Origin: a virus | Virus record (IMG/VR): IMGVR_UViG_3300035145_004312 | Coordinates: 1 to 35,405 of that record | Reading direction: 5' to 3' (one strand) | DNA: 35,405 nucleotides | In this document: in pieces, positions 1-10,353 of the stretch | How positions within the stretch are numbered: the first letter of the stretch is position 1 | How the letters are laid out: the number at the start of each line of letters is the position of its first letter | Notes under the pieces: model-generated | Databases searched by the model: none | What the model was told of the DNA's origin: nothing | What the model saw: only the letters and a program-made list of their open reading frames with translations | Made by a program: the position numbers and the translations under genes

Positions 1-25
1 CTTTTAGAATATAATATTCTAAAAG
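1..25. repeat. Perfect inverted repeat with TATAAT core ahead of the first gene
   Basis: Two perfect 11-base arms, CTTTTAGAATA and TATTCTAAAAG, flank a TAA spacer. The ATG of the sulfotransferase gene begins six bases after the right arm. The centre contains TATAAT (10-15), so the site could be a promoter overlapped by a dyad operator. It could also be an AT-only hairpin ending an upstream transcript. The window starts exactly here, so the upstream context is missing and the choice cannot be made. Confidence 0.55.
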
Positions 26-30
26 TTATT

Positions 31-573
31 ATGATCTGTCATTCAAAAAAATTTATTTTCTGCCATCACGGTAAATGTGCTGGTACATCAATTAAAAACG
101 CTATAAGAGCTGCAGAACCTTCTCTTAGGAAAGAATTAAGAGAGACTATATCAGGACATATGTCTCTAGCTCAAATGGAGGAAAAGATTAAGGAAGCGGG
201 AGGAAATCCAGACGAGTATTTTAAGTTCACTGTGGTCAGGAATCCTTGGGACAGAGTAGTTTCCTGGTGGTTTCATTGGCAAAAAATTGAAAACACTAAA
301 ATTGATTTTAGTGACTTTGTAATGCAGAGAAGGATGTTATATAGAGATCTTGACAAAATGGATTTTATATTAAAGTTTGAAAATCTAGATGAAGACTTTA
401 AAAAATTATGTAATATAATAGATATTAAACATGTAAATCTTCCTCATGTTCAGTATGGAACCAATAGACCAGATAAAAACTACAGGAGGTATTATAAGGA
501 CAACAGAGAAGCTAAAAAAGCAGTATTAAGGGTTCATAGGAAAACTATAGAAAAATTTGATTATAAATTTTAA
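31..573 (+). CDS. Sulfotransferase-family protein (PAPS-dependent, Sulfotransfer_2-like)
   Basis: The 180-residue product has the two PAPS-binding signatures of Golgi-type carbohydrate sulfotransferases. The 5'-phosphosulfate loop is HGKCAGTS with Lys15, and the 3'-phosphate motif is VVRNPWDR with Arg70, followed by a Ser. SGHMS (His43) lies where this family keeps a GH motif between the two. Members of the family transfer sulfate from PAPS to a sugar hydroxyl; the acceptor cannot be read from sequence. At 180 residues it is a minimal domain, with no signal peptide or membrane segment, so it should be cytoplasmic. The start at 31 has only an A/T leader (TAAAAGTTATT) and no Shine-Dalgarno. It is one of three separate sulfotransferase-like genes in the window and lies just before the tmRNA gene on the same strand. 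Confidence 0.85.
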   Translation: MICHSKKFIFCHHGKCAGTSIKNAIRAAEPSLRKELRETISGHMSLAQMEEKIKEAGGNPDEYFKFTVVRNPWDRVVSWWFHWQKIENTKIDFSDFVMQRRMLYRDLDKMDFILKFENLDEDFKKLCNIIDIKHVNLPHVQYGTNRPDKNYRRYYKDNREAKKAVLRVHRKTIEKFDYKF

Positions 574-592: not shown

Positions 593-1035
593 GGGGGTGT
601 TCTGGATTTGACTGATGTTGGATTCTCGCACTGCAAGTCGGAGATGTGTCAGGCTCCGATATCAAGACACAAAGCTGTACATGGCGAAGGTTATTATAGC
701 ATTGAAGAGCTTCTTGAAGCTGCTCGCGAAGAGTACGACAACCTCGTACAATTCGAGCAAGCTGAAGAGCTTGAGATGGTAGCTTGAGGGCTACCCCCTC
801 GCAACTTTTGACGCAGATATTAAGATTGCGGGGTCACCAATCTGCAAAAACAGACAAAAGTTTATCTGTTTCAAAAACTGTACCACTGAGTATTCGGGGG
901 CCTCAAGTTTGAGTGAATAATTGAAACAGTTAGTTGGATGTTTATATCATAACTCTAAAAAAAATAAACTAAACTTGTAGATGTGCTTGCTTGAAAGCAC
1001 TCAGGACGCGGGTTCAACTCCCGCCACCTCCACCA
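593..1035 (+). ncRNA. ssrA: Transfer-messenger RNA (tmRNA)
   Basis: This is a complete one-piece tmRNA of about 443 nt. The 5' end GGGGGTG pairs with CACCTCC just before the encoded ACCA at 1032-1035, giving a seven-pair acceptor stem with one G-U. The T arm GCGGG-TTCAACT-CCCGC is near the 3' end, preceded by the near-invariant GGAC. Helix 2 forms between 628-638 and about 972-985. Pseudoknot PK1 is explicit: TCGGAG (638-643) pairs CTCCGA (654-659), and GTGTC (646-650) pairs GACAC (666-670). Helix 5 is GGTAGC/GCTACC (778-783/790-795) with the tag stop TGA in its loop, the usual tmRNA arrangement. The role is rescue of stalled ribosomes and tagging of the incomplete protein for proteolysis. 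It lies among phage genes, with a hairpin terminator 12 nt downstream, so it looks like a working phage gene rather than a fragment left by integration. Confidence 0.95.
683..787 (+). other. tmRNA tag-peptide reading frame (34 codons)
   Basis: The resume codon is inferred as GGC at 683-685, 12 nt after the end of pseudoknot PK1, which is close to the spacing in known tmRNAs. From there the frame runs 34 codons to TGA at 785-787 inside the helix 5 loop. The peptide begins Gly-Glu-Gly-Tyr-Tyr, is strongly acidic (10 Glu and 1 Asp), and ends Glu-Met-Val-Ala. With the Ala delivered by the charged tmRNA, the start resembles Bacteroidota tags of the GENNYALAA/GETNYALAA kind. Typical bacterial tags have about 8 to 20 codons, so this one is unusually long. 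The exact resume codon is an inference. Confidence 0.7.
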
Positions 1036-1869: not shown

Positions 1870-2502
1870 TTTAGACCTAAGAACCGAAGCCAATTCCCCA
1901 AATCCCCCGCTATCTATTATTGCATTTTTGCAATGAATTAATTTCAAGAAATGGTCGTCAATAAAATTAATATCATCAAAATCTGATTTTAAAATATTTA
2001 TTTTGAAATTAAATTTTTGACTCAAAGACTCGAATAAATTATTTAACAGTAAAATATTTGTAGAATAATTTTCTTCAGTAAAAAAATATTTATTATTTTT
2101 ATCATTAGATCCATAGTGCATAGCAGCGATTATATTTATTGATTTATAGTCATTGTTTAAGGAAACTAAATCTAGAAGTTTATTTTGATTGAAAATAAAA
2201 CAATCTTTATGAAATTCGTTATCAGTAGCTATATCTCCGCACCTTATATAGATGTATAAATCTTCGTCTACAGGGGCATTGTACTCTTTTACTATATCCA
2301 ACAACGAGTCCCAATTAATAAAACTGGGGTCAAAAATATTTATAGTATTTAAATATTTGAACAAAATACTACCTTTGTAAATTGGGTTTGATAATATTGT
2401 TTTTCGATCATCTAGCCAACGAATCCCTCTACAAAATACTAAGTCTGCAATTCTGTAAACACTATTGCGCTTAAGAATTCTAATTTCTTTTGCTGTAGAC
2501 AT
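1861..2502 (-). CDS. Putative glycosyltransferase, fucosyltransferase-like (GT11/O-FucT-type fold)
   Basis: Two motifs suggest a GT-B fucosyltransferase-type enzyme. YIYIRCGDI, about residues 83-91, resembles the HxRRGD motif that binds GDP-sugar in GT11 and related families. HCKNAIIDSGGFGELASVL near the C-terminus resembles the late GT11 block where a short Cys-Lys-x-x-I strand leads into a Ser-rich turn and an Ala/Leu helix. The second Arg of HxRRGD is Cys here. At 213 residues it is shorter than typical GT11 proteins (about 290), so it may be a reduced relative. It is the last gene of the leftward array, six bases after the sulfotransferase gene, which supports a shared role in glycan modification. 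Confidence is high that it is a gene and modest for the family. Confidence 0.5.
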   Translation of the reverse strand: MSTAKEIRILKRNSVYRIADLVFCRGIRWLDDRKTILSNPIYKGSILFKYLNTINIFDPSFINWDSLLDIVKEYNAPVDEDLYIYIRCGDIATDNEFHKDCFIFNQNKLLDLVSLNNDYKSINIIAAMHYGSNDKNNKYFFTEENYSTNILLLNNLFESLSQKFNFKINILKSDFDDINFIDDHFLKLIHCKNAIIDSGGFGELASVLRSKLP

Positions 2503-2507
2503 TTTAA

Positions 2508-3104
2508 TTAAAAACTATACTGAAATCTTTCAATATCTTCTTTATACAAATGTTCAACTATTTTTTTTGAACGACTTGTGTAAAATTGTCTGTAAAGTTT
2601 TTTTGAAAAATCTTTTACAGTATCGAGCTTCGCACTTTTAAAAACACTAGGCAGCATAGTTATATCTAAATGTAAATTTTCTATTTTACCTATAAAATCT
2701 AAAGGTCTATCTAGAAAAAAAGATTGAGGTAAAAAATGTAAAACCTGTAACTTTGATAAAGCAAGGCCGTCTCTCAAAACAAAATCATTAAAATTTTCAT
2801 AATGAGAAATGTTATCGTAATTAGTGTGGGTGTCATATTGGTTTCCACAACCCCCTTTAGATAAGTAATTATATGCGCTCAGTGCTCTATCCCAAGGATT
2901 TCTGACGAAAGATATAGAAAATAGAGATTGATAAATTTGAATTGGTATATCGCTGCACTTAAGATGAGAGTCTCCCCTGAATCCACCAATACATTTTTTA
3001 ATGTAAGTTCCTCCACATTTTGGAACATGTATATAAACTAATTTTTTGTCAAAATTTATATTAGATGGGTAGGTTCTATTTAAAGTTATTTGATATGGGT
3101 TCAT
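2508..3104 (-). CDS. Sulfotransferase-family protein (PAPS-dependent, Sulfotransfer_2-like)
   Basis: This 198-residue protein has a clear 5'-phosphosulfate loop, IHVPKCGGTY with Lys29, a candidate His47 in GDSHLK, and the 3'-phosphate motif FVRNPWDRALS with Arg68. These are hallmarks of carbohydrate sulfotransferases using PAPS. The C-terminal region YRQFYTSRSKKIVEHLYKEDIERFQYSF is the typical end of the family, where a helix precedes a Tyr/Phe-rich tail. The start overlaps the terminase stop by four bases, so it is translationally coupled to the packaging operon. It is distinct from the protein at 31-573 (PKCGGT against GKCAGT loops) and is followed by the fucosyltransferase-like gene. The acceptor is unknown. 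Confidence 0.87.
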   Translation of the reverse strand: MNPYQITLNRTYPSNINFDKKLVYIHVPKCGGTYIKKCIGGFRGDSHLKCSDIPIQIYQSLFSISFVRNPWDRALSAYNYLSKGGCGNQYDTHTNYDNISHYENFNDFVLRDGLALSKLQVLHFLPQSFFLDRPLDFIGKIENLHLDITMLPSVFKSAKLDTVKDFSKKLYRQFYTSRSKKIVEHLYKEDIERFQYSF

Positions 3105-4975
3105 TTTATAAACATAGGAGTAAAACTTTGAAAAGATTGGTTTTCAATTTTATACCCCATTATATCATAATATATTTTAACCATCCAATTCCCAAGAACT
3201 AAAGATGAGTAGCAGTCTTTCCTGGCTTTATTAGGCCCTGTAGTTCTTTTTAATGTATCTGGTAGGTCAAATGTTTGAGTGCCCTGTGCTGTAGTTTTTA
3301 TTTGTATTAAAGCGCATTGGGCTTTAGTCATATTTATCATATCATGTTGATGTTCTATAAAATCAATCATTTTAGCCCCTCCACCTACAGATAAATCTCC
3401 TTCGGAAGTGTTTAGATATTTTAAAGAATCTATAGGTATTTTTTTTGATATTTGTGTCGTGTAAGAATCATCCATAGCCCTCGAACCAAACCATATTTTT
3501 TTATGATCAAAGCTTGCTTGCAGAAGTTCATTTGCATTTCTTATCCAATTACTAGTGGGCTTTCTTAAAATACAATACTTCTTATCTTCGATACTGTATT
3601 CGCTTTTTGCTAACCTTAGATCTTCTTGGTAATTTTCAGGCTTATCAAAATCACTGGTTAACATTTTTATATTTATTTTTGATTTCGAAAATAAGGAACT
3701 TTCATTGCATGCATTTATGAATTGGACTCCACCATTGTAGTCGCCCACGATAGCAATAACATTAAAATGAGTTAAAAGATAATGAAAATATTGTATGTGA
3801 TGCTTTAAATTAGTTCCAGCTAAACCGTAGCCATGAACAACTGTCCCCTGCTTTGTTTCATCATTAATTTTTAAAAGATGCATAGCGAAGTCATCAGAAC
3901 TTTCTGACTCGGCCCAACTCGGGTCAAAGGAAAGAATATATTTAGACGATGGATCCCCACAAATCTCAACCGAAGGAGAATCTCCATCTGGAATTGTACA
4001 TGCGGCCATTCTTGATGTTTTGAAATATCCTGAGCTATCATCTGTAAATATAGCTCCAAATTCTCGATCAAATTGAGACTGGCTCATTGTTGCTCTAGAT
4101 TGCAAAATCAAATTTTCATCATAAAGTTTTCTGGGAGCACAATCATAACTAAATTGCATAATGCACCTAGTAGCGTCTCCGTCTTCTTTTATTGTTCCAT
4201 TTATCAAATGCTCGAACTGTTCGTACAATTTGTATAAATATTCAAACTTATAAGATGCGGATGATAATGCTATAAGTTTATTGTTTGGCCATTTATACCT
4301 ATCTTCTTCTGACATTTTACCTTGCTCTATTAATTTTGATTCAGCTTGGTGCATTCTTTCTCTTTCTACTGGATTTTCCACAACTGACAAGAATGGCACT
4401 ATGACTTCGTTATATATCCTTTCGGGCATAAGCAAAAACTCATCTATAATAATTCTATGAAACCTAAAACCTCTAAGTTTTGATCCGTCACCAAGAGGCA
4501 AAGCTCTTATTCTAGAACTGCCAATTTCCATCAACCACTCGTCATTACTTTTTGATTTATGGGTGATACATTGCGATAACAACTTAGCTTCGGGTTTGGC
4601 TGCGATATCTTCAATTTTTTTGAAAATCATTTTTGATTGCCTAAATGATTTAGACAATATACCTATTTCGACACCTTGATTCATTATAGCATCCAAAAAA
4701 GCATAAATTCCAGTGGTAAAAGATTTTGACATACCTCTAGACCAAACCCCTAAAGTATAATCGGTCTCAAACATGGCTTTTATGGCCATATGTTGAAATG
4801 GAAAAAGCTCAACTCCAGACAATAAACTTGTAGTAAAAGTAATATTTTCTCTTAAAAATTTATATAGTAAAATTTTAGCTTCTTCTTCGTCTTCTATATA
4901 GCCATCTAAATTTAATAAAAATTCATTAAAATCTTCTTTCGAAGATCTTTTTTGTTTTCCTGGTTCCCAAGCCAT
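3101..4975 (-). CDS. Terminase large subunit (TerL), packaging ATPase and nuclease
   Basis: The 624-residue protein has the two-domain layout of large terminases. The N-terminal ATPase shows a Walker A-like loop WSRGMSKSFT (Lys84, Ser85) and a Walker B strand RIIIDEF with Asp178 and Glu179. The C-terminal RNase H-like nuclease shows ILSFDPSWA (Asp351), an Asp361-Asp362 pair and IVGDYNGG (Asp412), which supply metal-binding acids. It drives DNA into the prohead and cuts the concatemer. Length is typical. The start is supported by a Shine-Dalgarno AGGGAG four bases before ATG, one of the few in this window. It follows the SpeD-like gene after one base and overlaps the downstream sulfotransferase start by four. 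Confidence 0.95.
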   Translation of the reverse strand: MAWEPGKQKRSSKEDFNEFLLNLDGYIEDEEEAKILLYKFLRENITFTTSLLSGVELFPFQHMAIKAMFETDYTLGVWSRGMSKSFTTGIYAFLDAIMNQGVEIGILSKSFRQSKMIFKKIEDIAAKPEAKLLSQCITHKSKSNDEWLMEIGSSRIRALPLGDGSKLRGFRFHRIIIDEFLLMPERIYNEVIVPFLSVVENPVERERMHQAESKLIEQGKMSEEDRYKWPNNKLIALSSASYKFEYLYKLYEQFEHLINGTIKEDGDATRCIMQFSYDCAPRKLYDENLILQSRATMSQSQFDREFGAIFTDDSSGYFKTSRMAACTIPDGDSPSVEICGDPSSKYILSFDPSWAESESSDDFAMHLLKINDETKQGTVVHGYGLAGTNLKHHIQYFHYLLTHFNVIAIVGDYNGGVQFINACNESSLFSKSKINIKMLTSDFDKPENYQEDLRLAKSEYSIEDKKYCILRKPTSNWIRNANELLQASFDHKKIWFGSRAMDDSYTTQISKKIPIDSLKYLNTSEGDLSVGGGAKMIDFIEHQHDMINMTKAQCALIQIKTTAQGTQTFDLPDTLKRTTGPNKARKDCYSSLVLGNWMVKIYYDIMGYKIENQSFQSFTPMFIK

Positions 4976-9093: not shown

Positions 9094-10353
9094 TTATTTT
9101 TTTTGTGTACTCATTTTTTCAATTTCATACTTAAGATCCCAGTCAACATTTCCATTCTCATCAATATAAGGTTCCGAATTTGAGTCAGCAGAACATTTAG
9201 AAAAAATAAAAAAACAACAGGCTGTAAGTAAGAATAAAGAAAAACATATCCATGCTATATTTTTTTTCCAAAACACTGGTTCGGGCTCAGGCTCTGGTTC
9301 GGGCTCTGGCTCTGGTTTGGGCTCTGGCTCTGGTTCGGGCTCAGGCTCTGGTTCGGGCTCAGGCTCTGGTTCGGGCTCAGGCTCTGGTTCGGGCTCAGGC
9401 TCTGGTTCGGGCTCAGGCTCTGGTTCGGGCTCAGGCTCTGGTTCGGGCTCTGGATCAGGAGTATTTAAGATGATAGAGTCAGCGTCAATTATTCCGTACC
9501 CCCAATCGAAATCTCTGCCAACTTTCCCCATGTCATCGGCAGTTTCTTTCAGTAACTCTCTAATTTCATCTACTGTATATTTTTCATTATTTTTTTTCTT
9601 TTTAGAAATCAGCAAAGCAACCACACCCGCAACAAAAGGGCAAGCCATTGAAGTACCGCTAAGTTTGGCATATGTTTTATTTTTATAAGTGCTGAATATC
9701 TTAACTCCTGGAGCCGCTATTTCAACCTGCTTTCCCCTAGATGAAAAAGAAGCAATTCTATTATCTTTAGAAAACGCTGCTACTGCTATACATTCCTCAA
9801 ATGCAGCGGGATAATTAACCCCAGATATGCCGCTATTTCCTGCGGCACAAATAACTGGAATGTTTTTAAGATAAGCTTTTCGGACAGATGATTGTATTTC
9901 GGGACTAGGCTGAGAGGCTCCTAGGGACATACTAATTAAATCAACACCTTTATCTATGCAATAATCTATTGCTTTAGCTATACCTTTGCTGGAGCCACTG
10001 CCCGAATTGCTTAAACCTTTCACGCATAAACATTTTGATTTAGGAGCTACACCAACTGATCCAATTTGGTTGTTCTGAGCGCAAATAATACCCACACAGT
10101 GAGTTTGATGACCGTGCTTATCTTCAATAGATTCATTTCTAATGAAACTTTTGCCTTTAATAGCGTTATCGCCTATATCTGGATGATCAGGCCACCCAGT
10201 GTCTATAACTCCAATAATGACATTCTCGCCCTGTGTGGATTTCCATAGTTTAGGTATTTCTAATTTATCGACACTCCAGTCTTTTGTTTGAGATAATGAG
10301 GTATAGGATTCTTCTAGTTCAAAAGGAGGTAATGTGTAGTCATCTTTTTTCAT
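9094..10353 (-). CDS. Subtilisin-family serine protease with Pro-Glu stalk and C-terminal membrane anchor
   Basis: The catalytic domain occupies residues 25-300. The triad is Asp51 (VIDTG), His82 (GHQTHCVG) and Ser235 (GTSMACP), with Asn173 (AAGNSG) for the oxyanion hole. All core S8 motifs are intact, so activity is expected. No signal peptide precedes it, and only about 25 residues come before the domain, so a classical propeptide is absent. A stalk of about 60 residues of Pro-Glu dipeptides with one Lys exception follows. Next come a hydrophobic helix ([17 protein letters not shown]) and a 33-residue tail. The anchor implies a membrane- or virion-tethered protease, with the catalytic side probably cytoplasmic unless it is inserted unusually. 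It overlaps the PhoH stop by 14 nt. Subtilases are rare in phages, and the substrate is unknown. Confidence 0.92.
9277..9460. repeat. Tandem 18-bp repeat encoding the Pro-Glu stalk
   Basis: On the plus strand the unit GGTTCGGGCTCAGGCTCT recurs head to tail about ten times with small changes (T for C in GGTTTGGGC, TCT for TCA). Read on the minus strand it encodes Pro-Glu pairs in the subtilase linker. The near identity of the units suggests recent expansion by slippage, so copy number probably varies between relatives. Open frames on the opposite strand through it (Gly-Ser and Val-Arg-Ala repeats) are by-products of the repeat. Confidence 0.9.

Follow-up and report, generated by a model that had tools for sequence, protein, structure and literature searches.

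A complete tmRNA gene in an uncultured virus

The DNA investigated here, in the following called the window, is an uncultured virus record of 35,405 bases, attributed to a large phage of marine type. It holds a complete gene for a one-piece tmRNA, located about 2 kb from a large terminase gene. The features assigned to this locus are:

593–1035, + strand: complete one-piece tmRNA (ssrA) gene with encoded CCA; Rfam RF00023 and ARAGORN, with identical ends
593–599, + strand: 5' strand of the acceptor stem, G3 paired with U at position 1029 of the window, invariant in 20 relatives; sequence and RF00023 alignment
637–671, + strand: pseudoknot 1 (PK1), GTCGGAG/CTCCGAT and TGTGTC/GACACA; compensatory changes keep both helices in relatives
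672–682, + strand: 11-nt linker AAGCUGUACAU with U-5 and A-4, the resume-codon signal; U86, A87 and U90 of the RNA invariant in 20 relatives
683–784, + strand: 34-codon tag GEGYYSIEELLEAAREEYDNLVQFEQAEELEMVA; covariance-model alignment, family comparison and third-position bias of substitutions
778–795, + strand: helix 5 (GGTAGCTT / GGGCTACC) with the stop codon TGA, 785–787, in its loop; covaries in 23 distinct tmRNAs
797–845, + strand: pseudoknot 2 (PK2), CCTCGCAA/TTGCGGGG and GCAGAT/ATCTGC; covarying in relatives, its pattern retrieved the family
1008–1024, + strand: T arm GCGGGTTCAACTCCCGC; RF00023 alignment
1046–1071, + strand: terminator-like hairpin just 3' of the CCA end, 11-pair stem with short T tail; consensus match only
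1075–1551, - strand: Hsp20 small heat-shock protein gene, convergent with the tmRNA; Pfam PF00011, E = 9.9e-22

The RF00023 model was covered from 1 to 374 with a score of 108.3 bits (gathering score 47, E = 1.1e-42), and the predicted mature tmRNA has a length of 443 nt (593–1035). Its fold outdoes those of 100 out of 100 shuffled sequences (z = -4.65). The acceptor stem and CCA end read GGGGGUG/CACCUCC-ACCA, as expected for an alanine-accepting RNA; the G3-U pair in the acceptor stem is the identity element for alanyl-tRNA synthetase. The model score, this acceptor end, a resume codon with A-4 following PK1 and a stop codon within helix 5, which has 8 bp in the window, together identify a tmRNA. 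Both PK1 helices and helix 6 of PK2 show compensatory changes among 23 distinct members, the window included. The preliminary description, which had recognized a phage tmRNA from its acceptor stem, T arm, PK1 and helix 5, is thus confirmed by both programs.

Matches to sigma-70-type promoters around position 593 are weak. The hairpin at 1046–1071 can also be read as a terminator for the Hsp20 gene on the - strand, and an Hsp20 gene is found near the tmRNA in one relative, too (L083, 76% identical). Sulfotransferase-like genes (PF03567) flank the tmRNA and Hsp20 genes at 1–570 (+) and 2508–3104 (-) of the window, and the relatives L002 and L003 have several such copies in a row. A subtilase-family protease (PF00082, E = 1e-53) is encoded at 9094–10353 (-), adjoining a PhoH-like gene.

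The tag starts at position 683

The tag frame runs from the resume codon GGC at 683 over 34 codons to the TGA at 785–787 and encodes a peptide with a net charge of -10. The two tools differ here: ARAGORN gives a 21-aa tag beginning AREEY at 722, whereas the covariance-model alignment, which the preliminary description had proposed as a check, sets the resume triplet on the GGC at 683 and not at about 720 or later. In E. coli, the frame depends on an A located four bases 5' of the resume codon; the linker from PK1 to the resume codon, AAAAAAUAGUC, measures 11 nt (PMC2481249). The window linker, followed by GGC, matches it in length and in the position of its UA. Furthermore, 20 aligned members with tags of 20–40 codons show no variation at U-5, A-4, U-1, G+1 and C+3. 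Across the roughly 24 relatives newly found, UACAU followed by GGC is nearly fixed, although their tags have as few as 19 or as many as 40 codons. In 23 of 23 distinct tmRNAs the loop of the covarying helix 5 contains the stop codon, with a stop-to-PK2 spacing of 19–21 nt across the family. Judged from the invariant resume context shared by tags of such different length, the covarying helix around the stop codon and the spacing to PK1, the start at 683 is secure.

It is very improbable, then, that the tag consists of the 21 residues AREEYDNLVQFEQAEELEMVA with a resume codon at 722, which is codon 14 of the longer frame. ARAGORN reports this form for the window and likewise for L083, L146 and L155, and an A is present at -4, but U-5 is missing, the other invariant anchors are absent and the distance to PK1 is about 50 nt instead of 11. 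In addition, conservation at the protein level between the 34- and the 40-aa forms extends over codons 1–13. The acidic 34-codon tag described before, from 683 to the TGA at 785, is therefore genuine according to the alignment and to the fixed resume context of the relatives. An open reading frame at 557–787 (76 aa, TTG start) was rejected as a gene, being the tag frame read further upstream.

ARAGORN misses the tmRNAs of L089, L125 and L102, and it shortens acidic tags to 16–21 aa. The same probably holds for pipelines built on it, therefore surveys of tags in viromes are likely biased.

A family of tmRNAs with tags of different length and charge

Relatives were gathered by a PK2 pattern and a pattern for the 5' end in viral contigs, and by searches of terminase relatives. 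This yielded 23 distinct full-length tmRNAs, the window counted, and further ones with short tags. The tmRNA of the window belongs to a family that occurs in uncultured phages, which are probably jumbo phages. The tags fall into the following classes:

19–21 aa: for example GNKSRVKAFAFKKRQLALAA
31–32 aa, strongly basic, net +10 to +11: GAKNRVRALGFKNRLAAKRFGFKSRKLALAA
34 aa, acidic, net -9 to -11: window, L083/L091, L102, L146, L155
40 aa, acidic, net -10: L103 and L164, GEGYNSIEELLEAAREEYAVSQLIEDATALYEAEELPMAA

The basic 31-aa tag (net +10) with a LALAA end was found in L089, L087, L092, L125, L127, L163 and others; its sequence resembles a duplication, within the tag, of the NRVRAxGFK unit that the 20-mer of related phages contains. 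The 40-codon acidic tags are located at L103 4550–4998 and L164 1777–2211, where ARAGORN gives the last 16 residues only. Published message regions of tmRNAs range from 48 to 126 nt (PMC1168896); a message of 102–120 nt is near the top of this range and not unheard of. Permuted (two-piece) tmRNAs were reported by ARAGORN in L082/L093 (L082 409–750, -) and L085/L094 (L085 8905–9250, -), with the tags GEHVEMAMAA and AKVINLFTPQLRVAA.

A similar tmRNA was not found by blastn in cultured phages beyond 3' pieces of attachment-site size. The family RNA also occurs in two contigs of metagenome-assembled genomes (MAGs), assigned to Halobacteriovorax (L163) and 'Proteobacteria' (L164). L164 has phage-style replication genes that are also present in the viral contig L146. 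In the Halobacteriovorax bin, a contig of about 1 Mb carries a further tmRNA, whose tag, ANNDFAPAMAA, is not that of the family RNA. Therefore, both contigs are probably phage DNA in these bins, which we discarded as pointers to a host.

The tags are under coding constraint. Variable columns are distributed over the three codon positions as 2/1/7 in the acidic 34-aa class (P = 0.02 versus an even spread) and as 7/6/21 in the 31-aa class (P = 6e-4), where the P values come from related sequences and serve as a guide only. The 34- and 40-aa tags have their first 18 residues (GEGYxSIEELLEAAREEY) in common; of the variable codons in this block, 5 differ synonymously and 3 non-synonymously. Within the acidic 34-aa class, the 3 non-synonymous sites are all located in codons 1–8. 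Their middle parts differ, and the end is common again (AEEL-x-M-[VA]-A). Since both ends are conserved and the middle is divergent, the sequences suggest two functional tag ends with a freer middle.

The C-termini vary with the class: LALAA in most relatives, PMAA in the acidic 40-aa sister and MVA in the window, which indeed lacks the LAA end, as noted earlier. LALAA is the classical ClpX signal, and LVA, to which -[L/M]VA is close, is an ssrA ending used as a destabilising variant. The likeness to Bacteroidota tags seen at the start of the tag could not be upheld: the nearest tmRNAs by sequence are phage members whose tags start with GNK, GAK or GKN, and a match as short as 'GE..Y' carries no weight. 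An assignment to the Bacteroidota type with its short, GENNYALAA-like tag was rejected in view of the 34 codons, the MVA end, and the tag families and tree of the relatives found.

A ClpC-type unfoldase gene lies close to the tmRNA in several relatives

A Clp protein of about 800–840 aa is encoded in 24 of 40 tmRNA-bearing records, which are fragments, so that an absence weighs little, and which include related genomes that are not independent observations. Its best match in the PDB is ClpC of B. subtilis (E = 1e-194), and an (I/V/L)GF loop occupies the site of the ClpP-docking loop in every copy whose loop could be aligned. In six genomes the tmRNA follows clpC directly in the same orientation, at these distances from the end of clpC:

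34 bp, G047; 47 bp, G045; about 47 bp, G057
61 bp, G030; 156 bp, G070; 166 bp, G066

In G059, G076, G079 and G080 it lies about 1.3–1.4 kb upstream, with one structural-protein-like reading frame between. Four of the five other viral records with acidic tags (G042, G048, G049 and G050, not G051) have clpC, as does the acidic-tag MAG contig L164. In the latter, clpC (2243–4732, -) ends about 34 bp before the tmRNA (1777–2211, -), and the next genes upstream code for a DnaE-like DNA polymerase and an exonuclease-like protein. The 35-kb fragment of the window is without clpC; where both positions are known in phages with acidic 34-aa tags, clpC is about 10 kb away from the tmRNA and not adjacent.

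As a control, terminase relatives were inspected. Twelve out of 40 carry clpC, most of them without a tmRNA on the fragment; hence clpC is a trait of the phage lineage and not specific to the tmRNA. A functional tie between the two genes would therefore have to be argued from their linkage and not from mere presence.

In a tree of the RNA bodies the five acidic 34-aa tmRNAs group together with full support, whereas the Clp proteins of three of these five are very divergent. This lets us suggest that tmRNA genes seem to move between divergent phages. The distribution of the tag classes disagrees with the Clp tree: acidic tags appear in two Clp clades, whose neighbours carry short or basic tags, and supported branches make 3 changes necessary for the acidic class. 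Co-evolution of tag and Clp was rejected on account of this incongruence, as was charge complementarity between the tag and the ClpC N-domain (Spearman -0.11, P = 0.61). Thus, a tight specificity between tag and ClpC is not supported by either comparison.

SmpB was not found in the 40 phage records of the tmRNA family, so that SmpB of the host would have to serve. Neither ClpS nor SspB was found in 25 checked records. ClpP was found, among the phage records of the family, in G073 only. In this record of 211 kb, ClpP and a ClpC-like unfoldase are encoded about 7 kb apart (162921–163409; 170240–170476), and its tag, ANNIVRFEDFTACGEELALAA, is cyanobacteria-like.

Possible role of the long tags

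We consider it likely that the RNA, if expressed, acts in trans-translation with the SmpB of the host and that its tag is a two-part degron handled by ClpP together with the phage ClpC and/or the host ClpX. A working phage tmRNA would engage in ordinary trans-translation with the AlaRS, EF-Tu, SmpB and ribosomes of the host, adding the Ala with which the RNA is charged, followed by the 34 residues of the tag frame. The N-terminal block GEGYxSIEELLEAAREEY may then dock on the N-domain of an unfoldase or on an adaptor, while the C-terminal end, which is short and hydrophobic (MVA here, MAA for the 40-aa sister and LALAA elsewhere), would enter the pore. Tagged fragments would finally reach ClpP, fed by a phage ClpC-type unfoldase, a gene for which most close relatives have, docked on the host ClpP or by the host ClpX. 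The trans-translation half of this scheme is well supported by the sequence; the degradation half we infer.

Host ClpXP could also degrade the tagged proteins alone, with the phage ClpC doing an unrelated job in virion assembly or host takeover and the extra tag length being neutral or serving for reach. The LALAA end of most relatives' tags, the lack of correspondence between tag class and Clp tree, and the presence of clpC in relatives whose fragment has no tmRNA are all in line with this. We regard it nevertheless as rather doubtful, as six genomes have clpC immediately upstream of the tmRNA and the long tags are conserved at the amino-acid level along their length, where neutral length predicts otherwise. 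It is improbable that the tag is no degron at all and that its acidic, helix-like tail instead makes rescued proteins more stable or more soluble, sends them elsewhere or labels them for some purpose of the phage. The high charge of opposite sign in sister phages (net -10, +10) and the MVA instead of LAA in the window would fit such a role, but all classes keep hydrophobic C-termini of small residues, and a ClpP-docking ClpC accompanies the tmRNA. For the same reason, the escape from host proteolysis considered in the preliminary description is less likely: the tags of relatives that share the RNA body end in LALAA, that of the 40-aa sister in PMAA, and -[L/M]VA is near LVA. Its other suggestion, redirection to another protease, gains from a ClpC with docking loop that is common in the family and sometimes directly upstream, but not from any link between ClpC and the tag of the window. 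Many temperate phages carry 3' ends of ssrA as attachment sites, and the matches in the phage collection are pieces of this size. A functionless remnant of a host ssrA or an integration-site copy is hardly conceivable here, however, for a full-length RNA with all helices intact and covarying, a tag under coding constraint and a spread throughout a phage family.

Within the favoured scheme of trans-translation followed by ClpP-dependent degradation, a phage-owned pathway is a more tentative possibility. Tags of 31–40 residues might direct rescue products to a phage ClpC docked on the host ClpP, so that these would be withdrawn from the host adaptors and destroyed under phage control, with tag cassettes swapping between divergent jumbo phages.

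Phage tmRNAs were already known, and their purpose has so far been a guess. A fixed RNA architecture with tags as different as basic 20-mers and acidic 40-mers, often near a phage ClpC, makes the choice of the fate of rescued proteins by the phage testable.

Comparison with known systems

For phage tags of 31–40 aa and for the linkage of clpC and tmRNA we found no earlier report in the open-access literature. The phage Clp protein aligns over its full length with B. subtilis ClpC (PDB 3j3s); Clp_N, both AAA domains and the docking loop with its GF are all covered. ClpA, ClpX, ClpP and ClpS have been noted in jumbo phages without a tmRNA (PMC7824862). Unlike B. subtilis ClpC and this jumbo-phage set, the protein found here is phage-encoded beside a tmRNA, with a phage ClpP in G073 only.

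The RNA resembles the bacterial one-piece tmRNA (RF00023, E. coli ssrA) in its tRNA-like domain with G3-U, PK1, 11-nt linker with U-5 and A-4, resume codon, stop codon in helix 5, and PK2. It differs from E. coli ssrA by an acidic tag of 34 instead of 10 codons, a single stop codon, a shortened and variable PK3/PK4 region, and a glycine resume codon, which is known elsewhere (PMC1168896).

Phage-encoded tmRNAs are described for the Bxz1 group of mycobacteriophages and Bacillus phage G (PMC4131195), for 402 of 18,146 phage genomes and, as a two-piece tmRNA, for the marine phage Melnitz (PMC9004378), and, together with SmpB, for huge phages (PMC7162821). With these the window shares a complete ssrA in a phage genome, presumably served by the host SmpB. 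In contrast to those tmRNAs, the RNA is one-piece and not permuted, and belongs to a family with tags of 19–40 codons and a linkage to clpC, which the relevant passages of these reports do not describe. The tmRNA tags of Mycoplasma, of about 26–27 aa and Lon-dependent, are likewise long, and their C-terminus is changed in a way that suits a different protease; the present family seems to have kept the ClpP route, and the tag sequences are unrelated.
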